Positions 19,341-31,727 of a DNA stretch of 64,000 nucleotides are shown here, one piece after another (positions within the stretch are counted from its first letter, which is position 1; every line of letters starts with the position of its first letter). The position numbers and the translations under genes were made by a program. This DNA is from Shewanella psychropiezotolerans (lineage in GTDB: Bacteria > Pseudomonadota > Gammaproteobacteria > Enterobacterales > Shewanellaceae), in contig NZ_CP041614.1 in assembly GCF_007197555.1 (NCBI RefSeq), forward strand, positions 4,394,001 to 4,458,000, given 5' to 3'. The notes beneath the pieces were generated by a model. It was not told the DNA's origin. It did no database searches and worked only from the letters and a program-made list of their open reading frames with translations.

Positions 19341-19364
19341 TCTCTTTACTAAATTTATTGGCTT

Positions 19365-19700
19365 TCTTGCTTTCCATGCGTTTACACAAGAAAACACCAA
19401 GACCCAATTGGCTGAAAGGCGAAGAAAACCACTAGCCTGTTCATTAGCAACCTGCTATCTATTAGCTTTTTACTGCTTTGCTACTCAATTAACTCTTCTT
19501 GCTTTCCATGCGTTTACCCAAGAAAACACCGAGACCCAATTAGGTGAGAGACGAAGAAAACCACTAGCCTGTTCTAGCTATGAATCTTCTAGCAATTAAG
19601 TTTTTATAACCTTACTACTCAGCTTACTCGTCTTCTTGCTTTCCATGCGTTTACCCAAGAAAACACCTAGACCAAGAGGAGCGAAGAAAACCACTAGCAA
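19365..19700. repeat. tandem echoes of the lipoprotein gene 3' end (period 132-137 bp)
   Basis: The segment covering the last 35-45 codons of the neighbouring minus-strand gene (about 19633-19700) recurs at about 19495-19570 and 19365-19440. Shared blocks include TTTCCATGCGTTTAC, AAGAAAACACC and GAAGAAAACCACTAGC. Starts of the TTTCCATG block are 19371, 19503 and 19640. The intervening 60 bp are also related, so this is a decayed tandem array with one copy being the real gene end. The extra copies no longer keep the reading frame. Confidence 0.85.
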
Positions 19701-23913: not shown

Positions 23914-24427
23914 ATAGCTCCCGCACGTTAACATGCGGCGGCACACAAGTAATGATGACGCCACTCGGATCCCGAAGCACGACACACTCACACCATGACG
24001 CATCAAATCCGACACAGGTTAAGTATATGCAGCAACCGGGAAGTTGCATTTTGTGGTAAAGCCCACTAAATCCTTCTGGCATACGATTAGGTATTTAAAA
24101 GCCTTTCATCCGCTTAATAGATAAAAATAGGAAATTTAGCGTAAAAGATGCTGAAACAAATCATATTGAATAACCCAGCCCAAGACTCTCACTAAAGTGA
24201 GTCCGGCTCACGCCAGCTCCTGAACACAAGATCCGAATCCAAATTGCAGACTCCAGGTGTTAGAGCGGGCTGCTGCCCAGCTATTAAATAGAATTTGCGT
24301 ATCGATTTATCTACAGAGCTCGGTAATCATATCCTTGCTCTGTCAAAAAAACAGATACTCACAAAACTCGCTAATATAATAACCTACTATGCCGATCCAG
24401 TAATGTGCGGCTAGACAATTAAAACAA
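23914..24427. other. non-coding region upstream of the BCCT gene
   Basis: About 510 bp without a convincing gene. It holds the BCCT promoter region and, at 24190-24200, a short CTCACTAAAGTGAG palindrome. Nothing else recognised. Confidence 0.5.
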
Positions 24428-24450
24428 AAAAGCAGCGATAAGCTGCTTTT
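24428..24450 (-). terminator. terminator of the pst-phoU operon
   Basis: Arms AAAAGCAGC and GCTGCTTTT with a 5-nt loop; on the minus strand the stem runs into a T-tract of six. It lies 300 bp past the phoU stop, beyond the 87-bp repeat array, so the repeats are probably transcribed as the operon 3' UTR. Confidence 0.8.
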
Positions 24451-24500
24451 AATCAAGATTTACACCATTGTGGGCTCAAAATTTAGCCTAAAGACTCAGA

Positions 24501-24787
24501 TCTTTTTCATCTCTTCATAAGATATGAGATTGCCGGACATCTTTTCTATTACCAGACTTTTCGCTTAGCCAAGTTATAAGTTCAGGTCTTTTTCCATCTC
24601 TTCATAAGATATGAGATTGCCGGGCATCTTTTCTATTACCAGACTTTTCGCTTAGCCAAGTTATAAGTTCAGGTCTTTTTCCATCTCTTCATAAGATATG
24701 AGATTGCCGGGCATCTTTTCTATTACCAGACTTTTCGCTTAGCCAAGTTATAAGTTCAGGTCTTTTTCCATCTCTTCATAAGAAACG
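24501..24787. repeat. 87-bp tandem repeats echoing the phoU 3' end
   Basis: Two identical 87-bp units (24587-24673, 24674-24760), one 86-bp unit with two differences (24501-24586), and the partial fourth copy that is the real phoU end (24761-24787). The shared part covers the phoU stop and its last 12 codons. On the minus strand each unit reads [17 protein letters not shown] then TAA, in the phoU frame because 87 is divisible by 3. The middle of the unit (ATCTC...GAGAT, with TCATA/TATGA inside) can form a hairpin in RNA. Confidence 0.92.
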
Positions 24788-25458
24788 TGGCGTACATCTT
24801 TTCCTTTAACATAATAGATGATGTATTCGCAGATATTCTGACAGCGATCGCCGACACGCTCCACCGCTCGTGTCGCCCAAAGCACATCAAACACCTCAGG
24901 TATTGAACGGGGATCTTCCATCATATAGGTCATAAGTTGGCGGATGGTACCTTCATACTCTTTATCTAGCTTAGCGTCTTCCTTATGTAGCGCGAAAGCT
25001 GCATCAGCATCCATGCGAGCCAAGGCATCTAGGGTGCCGTGAAGAAAGCGGGTCGCGTGGCGTCCCATGCTATCGAGACTCACCAGAAGAGGTTGTTGCT
25101 TTTTCAAACGTTTATCCAGAGCAACCTTGGCAATTTTCACACAAGCATCACCGATACGCTCTAAATCTGTGATGGTTTTAGAGATGGCCAGCACTAACCT
25201 TAAATCACTCGCCGCAGGTTGCCTTTTGGCGATGATACGGGCACATTCCTCATCGATCGCGACCTCCATACCATTAACCTTATGATCGCCTTCGATCACG
25301 CTCTGGGCGAGCTCAGCATCTAAGGTTGCAATAGCATCCAGAGCTTGCTCCAACTGACGCTCTACCAGGCCACCCATGGCCAAGACGCGGTTACGAATAT
25401 CATCCAGCTCGGCGTTAAACTGACCCGAAATGTGTTTATTTAAATTCATATTATCCAT
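24748..25458 (-). CDS. phoU: PhoU, phosphate transport/regulation protein
   Basis: Cytoplasmic helical-bundle protein that links the Pst transporter to the PhoR sensor kinase. 236 residues with two PhoU repeats; the metal-binding motifs are visible as [15 protein letters not shown] with [15 protein letters not shown], and [15 protein letters not shown] in repeat 2. Last gene of pstC-pstA-pstB-phoU. Its last codons are repeated downstream as an 87-bp array. Confidence 0.95.
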
Positions 25459-25544
25459 CGGTGTTAACCCTTTTTCAGTATCTCATCCCCAGGGAGCTTA
25501 GCTCACTGGACTTGGATTGGTTGACTCACTCTAATTAGCCTTAA

Positions 25545-26363
25545 TTACCCGTAACGGCCGGTGATGTAATCTTCCGTTTTACGTTTCTGCGGCGTGGTAA
25601 AAATGGTGTTGGTATCGGCGTACTCAACCAGCTCGCCCATGTACATAAATGCGGTTTGATCTGACACCCGAGCCGCCTGCTGCATGTTGTGGGTCACTAT
25701 CACCACGGTATATTTTGATTTAAGCTCACTGATCAGCTCTTCAATGATCAAGGTCGAGATGGGATCCAGAGCCGATGTGGGTTCATCCAGTAGTAATACC
25801 TCAGGCTCGATAGCTATCGCGCGAGCAATCACCAGACGCTGTTGCTGACCACCTGAAAGGCCGAAGGCGTTATCATGAAGTCTGTCTTTCACTTCATCCC
25901 ATATCGCGGCACCGCGAAGAGAGCGCTCGGCAGCGTCATCAAGATCGCGACGATTGTTTATCCCTTGGAGGCGCAATCCGTAGACCACATTCTCATAAAT
26001 TGATTTAGGAAAAGGGTTAGGACGCTGGAATACCATGCCAACGTTACGACGCAAGGCGGCAACATCGATCTTCTTGTCATAGATATTTTGTCCGTGAAGC
26101 AGGATATCACCACTAATATGGCAGTTATCCACCAGATCATTCATCCGGTTAATACAACGCAGTAGAGTCGACTTACCACAACCACTAGGGCCGATGAATG
26201 CGGTAACTTGTTTCTCCGGTATCTTCATCGATACATCAAACAGGGCCTGTTTATCGCCATATTTCAGATCTAAGTTACGGATCTCCAGGGCTGTTTCTTC
26301 CTGGCTCAAGTTTTTCAGGTCCACTGATTTAGTACTCATCGCTGACTTATCTATCGAAATCAT
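25545..26363 (-). CDS. pstB: PstB, phosphate ABC transporter ATPase
   Basis: Energises high-affinity phosphate import. Walker [10 protein letters not shown] at residues 58-66, signature LSGGQQQRL and Walker [13 protein letters not shown] are all present. The frame opens with a GTG at 26378, but the ATG at 26363 has AGGA 6 nt before it; 272 residues. Lies between pstA (140-bp gap) and phoU (86-bp gap). Confidence 0.95.
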
Positions 26364-26503
26364 TTTATGTCCTATCACTTATAGATCTGCTACGCATCTC
26401 TATTTGAGTCACTGTGTGACAACTTTTTGGTTTATAACTGCAACTTAAAAGTATGATTCTGTTTCTCTATCATACTGGGTTTGCATTACTCCGCTAGCCA
26501 ATA

Positions 26504-28156
26504 TTAGTGCTCGAGTGAGCGATATTTCTCACGTAGATGGTTTCGAACCGCAATCGCCGTCAGGTTCAATGACACAATGACAGTAACCAGCAGGAACGAG
26601 GTGGCGTAAACCAGAGGTCTCGCGGCCTCTACGTTCGGACTTTGAAAGCCCACATCGTAAATATGAAAACCTAAGTGCATAAACTTTCGCTCCAGATGCA
26701 CGAAGGGAAAGTTCATGTCTATGGGCAAGGTTGGCGCAAGCTTAACCACACCCACCAACATCAAGGGAGCCACTTCACCCGCGGCGCGCGCCACAGCCAG
26801 AATGAGTCCTGTCATGATCGCCGGGCTCGCCATAGGCAAGATAATGCGCCACAGAGTTTCCGCCTTGGTAGCCCCTAGTGCCAGGCTAGCTTGGCGTACC
26901 GAACTTGGGATACGGCTCAAGCCTTCCTCGGTCGACACGATAACCACAGGTAAGGTCAAGATAGCTAAGGTCAATGCAGACCAGAGTACACCCGGGGAGC
27001 CAAATGTCGGCGCCGGCAGCGCTTCGGGAAAAAAGAGCTGATCTATGCTGCCACCGAACATATAGACGAAGAAGCCTAATCCGAATACCCCGTAAACAAT
27101 CGAGGGCACACCAGCCAGATTAATCACGGCGATGCGGATCATCTTAGTGACCGGGCCTTTCTTGGCATATTCGTGCAGGTAAACCGCCGCAATCACCCCA
27201 AAAGGCGTCACGATCACAGCCATCAACATCACCATAAAGACAGTGCCAAAAATAGCCGGAAATACTCCGCCCTCAGTGTTGGCTTCACGAGGATCGTCAC
27301 TGACGAAACGACCAACACCGACGAACCAATGGCCCAATTTATCCAGCGGGCCCAGACGATTGGAATAAGTCACATCCAAAATGCTGTCCAGCTTGAGGGT
27401 AACCTCCACGCCGCGCATGTCTTTGATAACGACCGAATCCCGACCCGCCTCTTTCCTGAGTCCGAAGAACTTTTTCTCTACAATCAGATATTGAGCCTGT
27501 AGGTCCGCCCGTTTCAGGGCTAAGTCGGCCTTAATCACTGGTGTTAGCTTACCATCGAGTTCATAACCACGTCCCTGCAGACGAAGCTTCTCAATGGCGT
27601 AGTTTATCGAACCAATCTCCCCCTTCTGAAGATCCACCGCCTTATCATTGAGCGCCACAGAACGATCTATGTGCGACTCGAACGAGGCTTCGACATTATC
27701 GAAGTCGAGTCGTTTACCATTTTCGATGACTGCAACAGGGTAGCCGTAAAAATCGCCATTTTTGCTGCGCTCGATGACCGCGATATCTTCGGGTCGACTG
27801 CGAGAGATGATATCAGTGGCTAGAATCCAACGAAAATCCAGGCCAACAAATTCACGGTTACCCGTTTTAACTAGGTAACGGGTAACCGTATCACCCGGCG
27901 CCTCTTCAAACACATGACCAGCCGAGATCAACTGCTCTGTGGGCACCTGCTCGGTGTCGTATATCTCCCCGATAAGCGTATATTGGGTCCCCTGTTGATC
28001 TTGCATCTCCCATTGATAGATCTCAGCAGGCCAGAAGTAACTCAAGCCCCGCCATGCAATCATCAAGAGTAGACCCAATACTGCAATCAAACTGATGCTG
28101 ACCGCACCACCTGTCATCCAGATCCAGGGAGAACCAGACTTAAACCAATTACCCAT
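26504..28156 (-). CDS. pstA: PstA, phosphate ABC transporter permease (enlarged form)
   Basis: Inner-membrane permease subunit. The N-terminal helix (about residues 12-34) is followed by a periplasmic insertion of some 200 residues and then the permease core, with the EAA loop RQASLALGATKAETLWRIILP. At 550 residues it is nearly twice E. coli PstA (296), like other marine gammaproteobacterial forms. Start ATG at 28156 with GGGAG 8 nt before it. Its initiation region is repeated three times upstream, and the start overlaps the stop of a leader ORF (ATGGGTAA). Confidence 0.94.
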   Translation of the reverse strand: MGNWFKSGSPWIWMTGGAVSISLIAVLGLLLMIAWRGLSYFWPAEIYQWEMQDQQGTQYTLIGEIYDTEQVPTEQLISAGHVFEEAPGDTVTRYLVKTGNREFVGLDFRWILATDIISRSRPEDIAVIERSKNGDFYGYPVAVIENGKRLDFDNVEASFESHIDRSVALNDKAVDLQKGEIGSINYAIEKLRLQGRGYELDGKLTPVIKADLALKRADLQAQYLIVEKKFFGLRKEAGRDSVVIKDMRGVEVTLKLDSILDVTYSNRLGPLDKLGHWFVGVGRFVSDDPREANTEGGVFPAIFGTVFMVMLMAVIVTPFGVIAAVYLHEYAKKGPVTKMIRIAVINLAGVPSIVYGVFGLGFFVYMFGGSIDQLFFPEALPAPTFGSPGVLWSALTLAILTLPVVIVSTEEGLSRIPSSVRQASLALGATKAETLWRIILPMASPAIMTGLILAVARAAGEVAPLMLVGVVKLAPTLPIDMNFPFVHLERKFMHLGFHIYDVGFQSPNVEAARPLVYATSFLLVTVIVSLNLTAIAVRNHLREKYRSLEH

Positions 28157-28247
28157 GACACTGACTCCCTACATCTAGTGCTGAACATACCGCATCATCT
28201 GTCATATCACAGTCCCAGGGAGAACCTGACTTAAACCAATTACCCAT
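28149..28247 (-). CDS. leader peptide uORF 3, overlapping the pstA start
   Basis: 32 codons starting MGNWFKSGSPW, then a different sequence (DCDMTDDAVCSALDVGSQCH) because the repeat departs from the pstA frame. Ribosome-binding site GGAG 8 nt before its ATG. Its TAA lies inside ATGGGTAA together with the pstA start, an 8-nt overlap typical of termination-reinitiation coupling. No database family expected; coding is inferred from the conserved start signals and the open frame. Confidence 0.5.
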   Translation of the reverse strand: MGNWFKSGSPWDCDMTDDAVCSALDVGSQCHG

Positions 28248-28338
28248 GTGAGTTTCTCCATACATCTAGTGCTGAACATACCGCACCACCTGTCATATCA
28301 CAGCCCCAAGGAGAACCCGACTTGAACCAATTACCCAT
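28240..28338 (-). CDS. leader peptide uORF 2
   Basis: 32 codons starting MGNWFKSGSPW and continuing GCDMTGGAVCSALDVWRNSH. Ribosome-binding site GGGAG 8 nt before ATG. It differs from uORF 3 at several codons but has the same length and the same ATGGGTAA overlap with the next start, so the overlap register has been kept despite divergence. Confidence 0.5.
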   Translation of the reverse strand: MGNWFKSGSPWGCDMTGGAVCSALDVWRNSHG

Positions 28339-28435
28339 GACACTGACTCCCAAGAAGTAGATCAAACTTAGCAACAAGCACCATGTCATTCATTCCCAAA
28401 GCCCAAGGAGAAACAGATTTAAACCAATTACCCAT
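28331..28435 (-). CDS. leader peptide uORF 1, first of the chain
   Basis: 34 codons starting MGNWFKSVSPW, then ALGMNDMVLVAKFDLLLGS. It begins 88 nt after the pstC stop, with GGAG 8 nt before the ATG, and its stop overlaps the uORF 2 start in ATGGGTAA. It is the most diverged copy yet remains open and two codons longer than the others. Confidence 0.48.
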   Translation of the reverse strand: MGNWFKSVSPWALGMNDMVLVAKFDLLLGSQCHG

Positions 28436-28522
28436 GAGAGTGTCTCCATAAGTTCAACTGTAAAACCCATATATTCATGTTCATATATATATTCATCATT
28501 TCTTTGCTACTAAAATGAGCGA

Positions 28523-30778
28523 TTAAAGTGAGCTATAGCGTTCACGTAGACGCTGTCTCACCACTTCGGCAATAGTGTTGAAAATAAAGGTGAAAATAAA
28601 CAGTACAAAAGCCGCCAGGAAGAGTACCCGATAGTGAGAACTGCCTATGGCCGACTCAGGTACTTCGACGGCAATATTCGCCGCCAGGGTGCGCATGCCC
28701 TGAAACACACTCCACTCCATGATAGCCGTGTTACCTGTCGCCATGAGTACGATCATGGTTTCACCAACCGCGCGTCCAACTCCCATCATGATGGCGGAGA
28801 AGATGCCCGGACTTGCAGTAAGCAATACCACTCGAGTGAGAGTCTGCCAGGTGGTCGCACCCAGCGCCAAACTGCCATTGGAAAGATGACGAGGCACAGA
28901 GAACACCGCATCTTCGGCTATCGAGAAGATAGTTGGTATGACTGCAAATCCCATGGCGATACCCACAACCAGCGCATTACGCTGATCGAAGGTGATACCG
29001 AGTTCATTGGTGATAAATAATCTTGAATCACCATCAAAGAAGGCGATTTCCAATGCTGGACTGATAGCGAAAGAGAACCAGCCGACGAATAAAATCACCG
29101 GAATCAACATCAACTCCTGATAGGCTTCAGGCAAGTACTCTTTAGCCTTACCTGGCAAGTTATGCCAGATGAAAGCACTGGTTAGTATCGAGAGCGGCAA
29201 GAGAGTGAGTAAGACTAAGATCCCCGGCAAGTGGTCCTCTATCAAGGGCGCCAGCCATAAACCGGCAAGGAAACCGAGTATTACCGTAGGCAAGGCTTCC
29301 ATGATCTCGATGGTTGGCTTGACGATGGAGCGTACTTTAGGCGTCATAAAATAGGCGGTATAGATGGCACCGGCAATCGCCAAAGGAGTGGCAAACATCA
29401 TGGCATAGAAAGCGGCTTTCATGGTACCAAACGCCAATGGCATCAGGCTCAACTTAGCTTCAAAATCATCGGATCCCGAAGTCGACTGCCACACATATTT
29501 TGGCTCAGGATAACTTTCATACCACACCTTGCTCCACATGGCGCTCCATGACACTTCAGGGTGAGTATTTGAAACACTGAACATATGTAACTTGTTGTCA
29601 GCTTCGACCACTAAGGCGTTAGAGCGTGGGCTGAAGCCCAGGGTGCTGGGATTCTTTAAGTTAAAATCTTTGGAAAATAGTTTTCTTTGGCTCGTGGTAT
29701 AAAGCAACGACAACTGGCCATTATCGCTGATAGTGACAAAGCTCTTTCGATAAAATTCAGAGGCAACACTCTTAATGCCGCCATGATTTCTAAATTCGCG
29801 TATCTCTTGATACTGACGCCCTTGCTTACCATTCACCTGAAAATACTGTTGTACCAAACCTGAATCGTAACTCACCAACAGAGAGCTTGCCCCTGCTAGC
29901 AGGCTAACATTTGTGACGTTGACACCAGTACGCCCCAACTCTAATACTTGACTCAGGGAGACAGCTTCGGCATCTCGAATATCATAGACGAAGAGTTTAT
30001 TGTCTGATCTGAGCAGGAGTTGACGCTGATTAGGAGTCATCAATTGTTGCTGAACACGTACCGGAGCATCGTCGATGATGCCGTTATAAGCAGACCATTC
30101 GACCTCTTCGGTCATCATGTTCTCTTCACCCTCCTGACGTGACAGACGCCAAATATTATCATCTCCCTGATAAGCAAAGGTCATCTTATCGCTACTGTAA
30201 TCGAATGCGAGATTGTTTATCGATTGCCCCTGTTCATCGACAGTCATAGGCGTCTTGCCGTTAGGGAATCTCAAATTAGGTGTGATGAGTCGCTTATTGT
30301 CTGGATAAGTCACACCAAACTCGATACCTGCAATGATCACCTGACCATTATCGAGTCCGAAAGCAAACCTCTGCTCACTTGGCACCGAGGCTGAACTACT
30401 GACAACTTGACTACCCTCGGGAAATTCCAGCTGTTCAGTTTCAATTAATTTTGATGAGCTAACATCATAAAAATCGACTCGACCAGTTTGAGAGACACGG
30501 TACATGATCTCATTTTGTTCATCGCTTCCAACCATCAGGGCCGGAACTGAATCCTGGAGGTCCACGCTCGATACTGGTGACACTTCGGCATCATCGAAGA
30601 TAGGCTTGATAACATAGAGCAGATAAAAGAAAATTAACAACAGAGCGATAAATACCATAGCTCCGCCGATAGTCACCCCAATTTGAGTCAACTTATCCTT
30701 AATTGCCCTGCTGCTTGAGCCTCTCCCCATCAGTAGGTTATGAGCCTTAGAATCAGGTTGTTTTACCTGAGTTTCCAT
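28523..30778 (-). CDS. pstC: PstC, phosphate ABC transporter permease (enlarged form)
   Basis: First gene of the pst operon. After a membrane helix at about residues 35-58 comes a periplasmic region of some 350 residues with beta-propeller-like repeats, then the permease core with six helices and the EAA loop SNGSLALGATTWQTLTRVVL. At 751 residues it is more than twice E. coli PstC (319). The binding protein PstS is not encoded in this window. GAGG precedes the ATG. A candidate PhoB box lies about 110 bp upstream. Confidence 0.93.
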   Translation of the reverse strand: METQVKQPDSKAHNLLMGRGSSSRAIKDKLTQIGVTIGGAMVFIALLLIFFYLLYVIKPIFDDAEVSPVSSVDLQDSVPALMVGSDEQNEIMYRVSQTGRVDFYDVSSSKLIETEQLEFPEGSQVVSSSASVPSEQRFAFGLDNGQVIIAGIEFGVTYPDNKRLITPNLRFPNGKTPMTVDEQGQSINNLAFDYSSDKMTFAYQGDDNIWRLSRQEGEENMMTEEVEWSAYNGIIDDAPVRVQQQLMTPNQRQLLLRSDNKLFVYDIRDAEAVSLSQVLELGRTGVNVTNVSLLAGASSLLVSYDSGLVQQYFQVNGKQGRQYQEIREFRNHGGIKSVASEFYRKSFVTISDNGQLSLLYTTSQRKLFSKDFNLKNPSTLGFSPRSNALVVEADNKLHMFSVSNTHPEVSWSAMWSKVWYESYPEPKYVWQSTSGSDDFEAKLSLMPLAFGTMKAAFYAMMFATPLAIAGAIYTAYFMTPKVRSIVKPTIEIMEALPTVILGFLAGLWLAPLIEDHLPGILVLLTLLPLSILTSAFIWHNLPGKAKEYLPEAYQELMLIPVILFVGWFSFAISPALEIAFFDGDSRLFITNELGITFDQRNALVVGIAMGFAVIPTIFSIAEDAVFSVPRHLSNGSLALGATTWQTLTRVVLLTASPGIFSAIMMGVGRAVGETMIVLMATGNTAIMEWSVFQGMRTLAANIAVEVPESAIGSSHYRVLFLAAFVLFIFTFIFNTIAEVVRQRLRERYSSL

Positions 30779-30886
30779 TAGAACCTCGTTTATTAAATAG
30801 CCAGTAGACTTTTCACTGGGATTGTTTCAACTGCTATGCTAACAATAGCTTAGAAACATTCTCATTATTCTGATGTGTGGCATTAT

Positions 30887-30904
30887 ATGACGTAAAGATG
30901 ACAC
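30887..30904 (-). promoter_or_regulatory. candidate PhoB box upstream of pstC
   Basis: On the minus strand GTGTCAT-CTTT-ACGTCAT: two direct repeats 11 bp apart, matching CTGTCAT at 6/7 and 5/7. It sits about 110 bp before the pstC ATG with AT-rich -10 candidates beyond it, as expected for phosphate-starvation control of the operon. It is also only 60 bp from the divergent GcvR-like gene. Confidence 0.55.
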
Positions 30905-30961
30905 TAGTGTTACAGTGCCTAATCAAGGATGAAAACAATTAAAGACAGGAGAAATATCAAT

Positions 30962-31462
30962 ATGTTACGTTATTTAGTTACACTGCAGGTTGCAGATAAA
31001 AAAGGACTAGTTGAACAGATAGCCCACGCGGTGAGTCGCCATGGCGGTAATTGGCTGGATTCTGAACTACGTCATATCGATGGTATCTTCGCCGCCATAC
31101 TCCTGTTAGAGGTGCCTTCGTCCAACTGGGACATCTTAATCGAAAGCCTGGAATGTATCGAAGGCTTGAGCCTGACCTATGCCAAGACCAGCAAACAGCC
31201 CAATAAACTACAACATCTTAGCTTCTCACTCGTCGCCTATGACAGACCCGGTCTGGTACACGAGATCTCCAACAAAATAAGCGCCCTGGGTATCAATATC
31301 GAACACTTCAGCAGTCGTTATGAGACAGCCTGCCACACTGGCATCGCCTTATTCAGAGCAAACTTCGATCTCGGCATGAAAAACCCCGAGCAAGAGGAAC
31401 AACTATGTGAAGCACTTTATGCATTAGGTGATGATGTGGTACTCGATAAGATAAGCCGCTAA
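30962..31462 (+). CDS. GcvR-like protein with two ACT domains
   Basis: Two ACT domains (about residues 5-75 and 85-160 from the chosen start) in the glycine-cleavage repressor GcvR layout, recognisable by VADKKGLVEQIAHAVSRHGGNW and AYDRPGLVHEISNKI. GcvR binds GcvA and represses the glycine cleavage genes; other members are unassigned. Start at ATG 30962 because AGGAG lies 10 nt upstream; the frame opens at 30929. Divergent from pstC. Confidence 0.85.
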   Translation: MLRYLVTLQVADKKGLVEQIAHAVSRHGGNWLDSELRHIDGIFAAILLLEVPSSNWDILIESLECIEGLSLTYAKTSKQPNKLQHLSFSLVAYDRPGLVHEISNKISALGINIEHFSSRYETACHTGIALFRANFDLGMKNPEQEEQLCEALYALGDDVVLDKISR

Positions 31463-31727
31463 AGCAGACTTGACCCAATAGCTATCCGACCCAAGAAAAA
31501 ATAGACTCAGTCTCTACATCGAGGAGAACCTTTCTCTTCGATGACTTTATCTTCGATTACTCCCCTGCTCACTTAGCCTTCAGAATGCTTCTTTACATAA
31601 TCACTTCGCAATCGGTTAAATCAATCAAGAATCAAACCAACAATCTGATATAATGAGAAACATAAGATCGTTAATGTCATGCTCAAAATTATAGGGAACG
31701 ATAGAGTTTCCAATGATAGGAAAAAAT

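Follow-up and report, generated by a model that had tools for sequence, protein, structure and literature searches.

Organisation of the pstC-pstA gap

The window, that is, the whole 64,000-nt stretch of DNA that was analysed, carries in minus-strand order pstC, a gap of 366 nt, pstA, pstB and phoU. The pstC gene (28523..30778, minus strand; NCBIfam TIGR02138, 205 bits) would supply ribosomes to the relay put forward below, and pstA (26504..28156, minus strand; 550 aa; NCBIfam TIGR00974, 260 bits) is the proposed target of that relay. A chain of four short ORFs, all on the minus strand, lies ahead of pstA. The first is an older bridging ORF of 23 codons (28428..28499; MMNIYMNMNIWVLQLNLWRHSHG), which starts at 28499, 23 nt past the pstC stop, ends at 28428 in the ATGGGTAA of the first leader and is the same ORF as that found in L083-L085; like the bridging ORFs of L087, L089-L091 and L094, it has no distinct SD (the best values in these ORFs being -0.2 to -2.2 kcal/mol). 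It is followed by leader ORF 1 (28331..28435; 34 codons, 105 nt; MGNWFKSVSPWALGMNDMVLVAKFDLLLGSQCHG), leader ORF 2 (28240..28338; 32 codons, 99 nt; MGNWFKSGSPWGCDMTGGAVCSALDVWRNSHG) and leader ORF 3 (28149..28247; 32 codons, 99 nt; MGNWFKSGSPWDCDMTDDAVCSALDVGSQCHG), the last of which shares 8 nt with pstA. At a distance of 8 nt, the ATG of leader 1 is preceded by GGAG (28444..28447), that of leader 2 by GGGAG (28347..28351), that of leader 3 by GGAG (28256..28259) and that of pstA by GGGAG (28165..28169). Four ATGGGTAA stop/start junctions connect the frames, located at 28428..28435 (bridging ORF to leader 1), 28331..28338 (leader 1 to leader 2), 28240..28247 (leader 2 to leader 3) and 28149..28156 (leader 3 to pstA), all on the minus strand. 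An open frame is consequently present throughout the gap save for 23 nt, and is unbroken from the start of the bridging ORF to pstA. The lengths of the leaders, their GGAG or GGGAG motifs and the 8-nt overlaps, including that into pstA, had been given in a preliminary description of this DNA and were exact on re-reading; all three leaders of the chain described there are present, but the fourth, older ORF (28428-28499) had been overlooked.

Tandem Repeats Finder identified an array at 28101..28350 with a period of 91, 2.8 copies and 84% matches, and a further, more diverged unit of 97 nt was located at 28339-28435, both on the minus strand. Successive starts are 97, 91 and 91 nt apart, each distance being 1 mod 3, and as every start lies in ATGGGTAA, the overlap of each stop with the next start is partly a mechanical outcome of duplication. 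The part that goes beyond chance is seen in relatives, namely in the genus-wide conservation of the frame and in the intactness of all 20 leader units tested. A DNA search of the 6.45-Mb genome of the window (E up to 0.001) returned one match for the 370-nt array stretch, which is thus not dispersed at many loci of that genome, and no Rfam match was obtained at E up to 0.5 across positions 24000-31500 of the window.

The bridging ORF in the genus and beyond

The region upstream of pstA was read in 129 Shewanella genomes (L082-L210), each of which has a PstA match, using pstA starts taken by alignment to the PstA of the window, with the starts of L093 and L209 corrected. In 126 of the 129, the gap contains an ATG-started ORF whose stop overlaps the pstA start. 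The overlap is 8 nt (frame 2) in 118 genomes, five of which also have one of 1 nt, and eight of the 11 genomes without the 8-nt overlap have another type: 1 nt alone in seven and 4 nt (ATGA) in L093, a genome equal to S. hanedai (L007) in gap and identity. A bridging ORF is missing from L189, L197 and L205, with gaps of 45, 32 and 23 nt, respectively, all within the seven genomes whose gap is 45 nt or shorter. Single-copy relatives also carry a bridging ORF, a point absent from the preliminary description, and the array thus builds on a feature shared across the genus.

The frequency expected by chance was estimated by shuffling the gap with its last 14 nt kept, using one representative per identity cluster. 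With the caveat that the clusters are not fully independent, the ORF was found in 52 of 56 clusters at 85% identity (16.8 expected from shuffles, P 3e-27), 30 of 33 at 70% (9.4 expected, P 1e-16), 12 of 14 at 60% (3.8 expected, P 3e-7) and 8 of 10 at 55% (3.0 expected, P 4e-4). Stops and ATGs in the gap are strongly frame-specific. Counted over frames 0/1/2, stops in the last 42 nt number 261/56/6 in the 113 non-expanded genomes whose gap is 45 nt or longer and gap ATGs number 45/19/241 in 117 non-expanded genomes, with corresponding values of 42/16/2 and 10/9/53 at 70% clustering. That a tiny frame between pstC and pstA is kept by nearly all relatives suggests that ribosomes may be carried from gene to gene.

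A conserved peptide was not found in these ORFs: the peptides differ between lineages, those of single-copy species ranging from 8 to 32 residues, and the bias of changes towards any codon position is weak (132/122/147 changes on the tree by codon position, from -43 to -17). Frame, start and stop are therefore kept while the peptide is under little constraint, and both readings that give the peptide a role are disfavoured by the distribution of changes and by the differing peptides. If the ORFs encoded a functional small protein, the MGxWFK-xx-SPW start shared by the leaders of several species could be taken as its signature; however, this start is a copied pstA start, single-copy species have other peptides and changes are spread nearly equally over codon positions, which makes a protein product scarcely credible. 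A sensory leader peptide, in which stalling in the leaders would make PstA synthesis depend on phosphate or another signal, is very unlikely as well: the site ahead of a phosphate-transport gene and the repeated short ORFs would suit such a device, but the peptides of different lineages look unrelated, and neither the codon positions nor the Rfam search point to one.

The untranslated travel from pstC to pstA was expressed as hops, with ATG ORFs allowed as steps and the best path taken. In the outgroups, the nearest upstream ORF of at least 90 codons was taken in place of a confirmed pstC. Across 191 genomes, 129 from Shewanella and 62 from outgroups, with gaps of 8-369 nt, the largest single hop never exceeds 45 nt; the highest values are 45 nt in L189 and 38 nt in L350, and the other 189 genomes have hops of 33 nt or less. 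The median hop in the 127 Shewanella genomes with a gap above 40 nt is 10 nt, against a shuffled mean of 34. Outgroup gaps measure 8-33 nt in 58 of 62 cases. Three of the four outgroups with longer gaps are tightly bridged: L077 has an 8-nt overlap and a hop of 11 (matched by 9% of shuffles), and in L352 and L356 an ORF ends directly before the pstA ATG, giving hops of 2 and 0 (equalled by 3% and 5% of shuffles). The remaining one, L350, has a 60-nt gap that is weakly bridged by a short overlapping ORF (hop 38; 53% of shuffles equal). According to section 6 of PMC12548453, coupling is efficient at spacings of approximately -4 to +3 nt, weaker to approximately +40 nt and reduced with longer overlaps; by the spacing data of that section, the 8-nt overlap is not optimal, and the hop limit of 33-45 nt fits the reported range.

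A bridge as a generic property of operon gaps was considered for the genome of the window and rejected. With genes defined by simple ORF calls and start codons by a crude SD score, 16 of 177 co-directional pairs with a gap of 45-130 nt had a relay in which no hop exceeded 15 nt, against 16.9 expected. Relays are thus not enriched in the other gaps of this genome, and the pst bridge is not generic to gaps.

A proposed translational relay

The best SD energy before the starts of gap ORFs is -5.4 kcal/mol, compared with -2.8 kcal/mol at matched random gap positions, and pstA itself is preceded by a good SD (mean -6.6 kcal/mol). A hairpin hiding the pstA SD was rejected as a genus-wide mechanism, as the SD of the non-expanded genomes is, if at all different, less paired than that of shuffles (unpaired 0.61 versus 0.53 in shuffled sequences; 89 distinct sequences from 117 genomes). 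Folding carried out without a shuffle control predicted the pstA SD to be paired in several array genomes, that of the window included, with predicted unpaired values of 0.06 in L082, 0.17 in L084, 0.03 in L085, 0.01 in L093, 0.16 in L096 and 0.01 in L098; the same procedure, likewise without a shuffle control, predicted it not to be paired in L083 (0.65 unpaired) and L097 (0.51).

From the comparative data, the leaders are probably cis-acting relay ORFs that couple the translation of pstA to that of pstC across the long gap, and termination-reinitiation coupling, as already proposed in the preliminary description, still appears to be the best reading of them; that the chain might tune or condition PstA synthesis relative to PstC, as that description also suggested, is conceivable. 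A ribosome ending pstC would restart at the nearby bridging ORF, end on the next ATGGGTAA, restart there and repeat this until the pstA start is reached; the act of translation would count in such a relay and the peptide would not. The model makes three suppositions: the ORFs are translated; reinitiation is by the very ribosomes that terminated, as opposed to these only opening the mRNA for others; and the output of pstA depends on the relay. As a variant in the array genomes, the upstream ribosome may unfold the mRNA around a paired pstA SD.

As a counterpoint, pstA might initiate alone, its own SD being good and, in the non-expanded genomes, unhidden by any shared hairpin. The ORFs would then serve chiefly to keep ribosomes on the gap, shielding the mRNA against Rho-dependent termination or RNase and so against polarity, a role that calls for open frames and not for a peptide sequence and that would match the weak constraint on the peptide. 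However, coverage does not require a stop exactly on the pstA start, yet this arrangement is kept by three different overlaps, and the other 45-130 nt gaps of the same genome are covered no more than by chance. Protection of the gap as the main function of the ORFs is therefore considered unlikely, and coupling through a relay is retained as the working model.

In the uof-fur pair of E. coli and the tap-repA pair of plasmid R1, a uORF is coupled to the downstream gene, and in this coupling the pst ORFs may be likened to them; those two pairs are set apart by having a single uORF, located in a 5' leader, and known RNA regulators. A short upstream ORF that 'delivers' the ribosome to the next gene is a known mode of coupling (PMC12548453). 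The pst ORFs resemble it, as described there, in that the short ORF ends at the start of the next gene and the peptide appears secondary; their stop overlaps or abuts the downstream start (126/129 genomes and the four junctions of the window) and their frame is conserved beyond chance. They differ from that description in lying within an operon between two long genes, in occurring genus-wide with changing sequence and in forming a serial chain of four. MIRUs are presented in section 11 of PMC12548453 as apparently mobile repeats that insert at start codons, with an ORF overlapping the next start codon at a spacing of -4 nt, an insertion being expected to have almost no effect on expression. 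A repeat-borne ORF overlaps the downstream start in the pst array too; compared with the MIRUs of that section, however, the pst unit lies at one genomic place, is built from the gene's own start and has an 8-nt overlap. In Salmonella, the short ORF mgtQ lies between mgtC and mgtB and promotes translation of the transporter; PMC8092293 reports that it releases an otherwise hidden ribosome-binding site and requires its Asp/Glu codons. In both systems a transporter operon has a long intergenic region that holds a short ORF, whereas the pst ORFs, set against that account of mgtQ, have no hairpin common to the non-expanded genomes and no detected peptide constraint, and their stop lies on the next start. 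Searches of the open-access literature, judged by titles, abstracts and selected passages, gave no article describing a pst leader or relay ORFs that arose from junction duplication, which is weak evidence of absence. Ribosome-delivering short ORFs, MIRUs and mgtQ are already known, and what is apparently new is the genus-wide pst bridging ORF together with arrays made from a gene's own stop/start junction.

Origin and upkeep of the arrays

The tree of the pstC/pstA flanks contains three expanded groups, each with a single-copy relative. The first comprises L082-L086, with matches to S. benthica L001 and L003, and has a node support of 62 (inner nodes 50-55); the second (L092/L095/L097/L098, of which L092 and L097 agree in gap and identity with S. 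atlantica L051 and S. canadensis L058) and the third (L093/L096) each have a support of 100. On a parsimony reading, the arrays would have arisen at least three times by duplication of the uORF/pstA junction, and L125 may represent a fourth expansion. The duplicated unit consists of the pstA N-terminus and the 3' portion of the older bridging ORF, as a comparison of single-copy L091 (FEPEVVFGSNCHG) with L092 (SEPELVFGSNRHG) shows. The derivation of the leaders from the pstA initiation region, claimed earlier for the window, is thus borne out by their pstA-like first part, and the remainder resembles the older bridging ORF.

We infer that the bridging ORF came with the lengthened pstC-pstA gap of Shewanella and that, in a later step, the junction formed by the 3' end of the bridging ORF and the 5' end of pstA was tandemly duplicated in some lineages. 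A duplication of overlap-fitting length would yield an extra relay ORF in which the pstA N-terminus is fused to the C-terminus of the bridging ORF, and since each fitting duplication would supply one more relay ORF, pstA would stay coupled however long the gap grows. Relay steps are added largely mechanically when a stop/start junction is duplicated.

A chain of overlapping ATG ORFs reaches pstA in 18 of 18 genomes examined; relative to the end of the pstC stop, its first ORF is placed from 1 nt upstream to 30 nt downstream. All 20 leader units tested in nine genomes are intact, and because the chains leave no more than 30 nt uncovered in these nine, no broken copy is hidden there. Frameshifted or stop-containing copies in relatives, which the preliminary description had named as evidence against a function of the leaders, were accordingly seen in 0 of 20 units; L086, which is eroded and has lost the copies, retains one bridging ORF of 43 codons onto pstA. 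If the 132 substitutions of the spanning tree are taken to fall at random, the chance of 20 intact units is approximately 1e-7.7, or approximately 1e-5.5 once three poorly alignable edges (two of them between groups) are dropped, in a calculation that ignores gene conversion with pstA, which could inflate significance, and that leaves out L086, L093 and L125 on account of erosion or a differing overlap. Indels on the well-alignable edges are 3, 3, 6 and 6, all multiples of 3; over all edges the proportion is 8/19. The gap of L125 contains a possible independent, degenerate leader copy (MDKCDLSW...) with a two-step relay.

The array might also be a by-product of frequent tandem duplication, with functionless extra copies and selection acting on the single bridging ORF or on nothing. 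Tandem arrays are common, 27 of period at least 35 having been detected in 1.664 Mb (26%) of the genome of the window, of which 21 lie outside genes or over a gene end according to simple ORF calls; copy number at pstA varies from 0 to 3 among close relatives, with some units nearly identical (L085), and the frame-shift control described below is not significant for the sampled arrays. Against this stands the intactness of the 20 pstA leader units, with the reservation about conversion given above, and we regard the by-product reading as doubtful.

A looser scan of the same 1.664 Mb gave 65 repeat regions, the positions of which relative to genes again rest on simple ORF calls; the names permease-like, leuC-leuD-like and exonuclease-like are taken from reading of the proteins. 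In the genome of the window, four tandem leaders of 40 codons with a period of 112 and 11-nt overlaps precede a permease-like gene (L226:11627-12157, approximately 4611627-4612157), and the first of them overlaps the stop of the upstream gene. At the corresponding junction, relatives L295-L300 have no leader and the upstream gene overlaps the start by 11 nt, and leaders are present in L292 (period 112), L294 (period 91) and L293 (at least one). Further relay-bearing arrays were found in L220, L253, L270 (leuC-leuD-like) and L219, and in an uncultured Shewanella two tandem leaders of 24 codons with a period of 77 precede phoU, with stops 2 nt before the next start (+2; L061:7224-7399). The junction arrays of L252 and L286 have no ATG/GTG relay, and L286 has a relay solely when TTG starts are allowed.

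Eight arrays, including that of the window, were picked from the 65 regions as lying at a co-directional junction, with L214, which has no relay, left out. With hops up to 15 nt, five of the eight relay, compared with 1.36 in shuffles (P 0.001) and 4.17 after frame-shifting of the units (P 0.37); with hops up to 25 nt the corresponding values are six of eight, 2.25 (P 0.003) and 5.49 (P 0.52). The array of the window fails at the 15-nt limit owing to its first hop of 23 nt. Frame selection is thus not supported across the eight junction arrays: a deletion of 1-2 nt per unit leaves loose relays about as often, so that the eight together give no evidence of selection on frame, and chain formation in them is largely mechanical.

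As a tentative generalisation, which we put forward as possible and no more strongly, operons may bridge growing gaps by self-copying relay ORFs through which one ribosome reinitiates four or five times, a solution that would be recurrent in Shewanella (pstA, the permease-like gene, phoU, leuC-leuD-like and others) and limited to approximately 30-45 nt of untranslated travel. If this were true, the pst gap would provide, among related species, a ready-made series in which a single gene is preceded by between one and four successive restarts, permitting direct measurement of the decay of coupling per restart, of 30S versus 70S travel and of travel distance. It would account, too, for the tolerance of operons towards tandem duplications at gene starts and would point to unannotated small ORFs with a mechanical and not a coding role.

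Several other tandem arrays were recorded as side observations. In L219 (15418-15831), approximately six 67-nt repeats of the 3' end of a gene lie before an exonuclease-like gene, to which five open GTG frames of 21 codons lead, each starting 1 nt past the previous stop. In the window, the 3' end of phoU and the stretch downstream of it are repeated 3.3 times at 24496-24783 (minus strand; period 87, 98% matches), and a different array with a period of 70 occupies the corresponding place at the phoU 3' end in S. benthica (L001). A further array of the window, with a period of 132, extends over the 3' end of a minus-strand ORF at 19364-19673.
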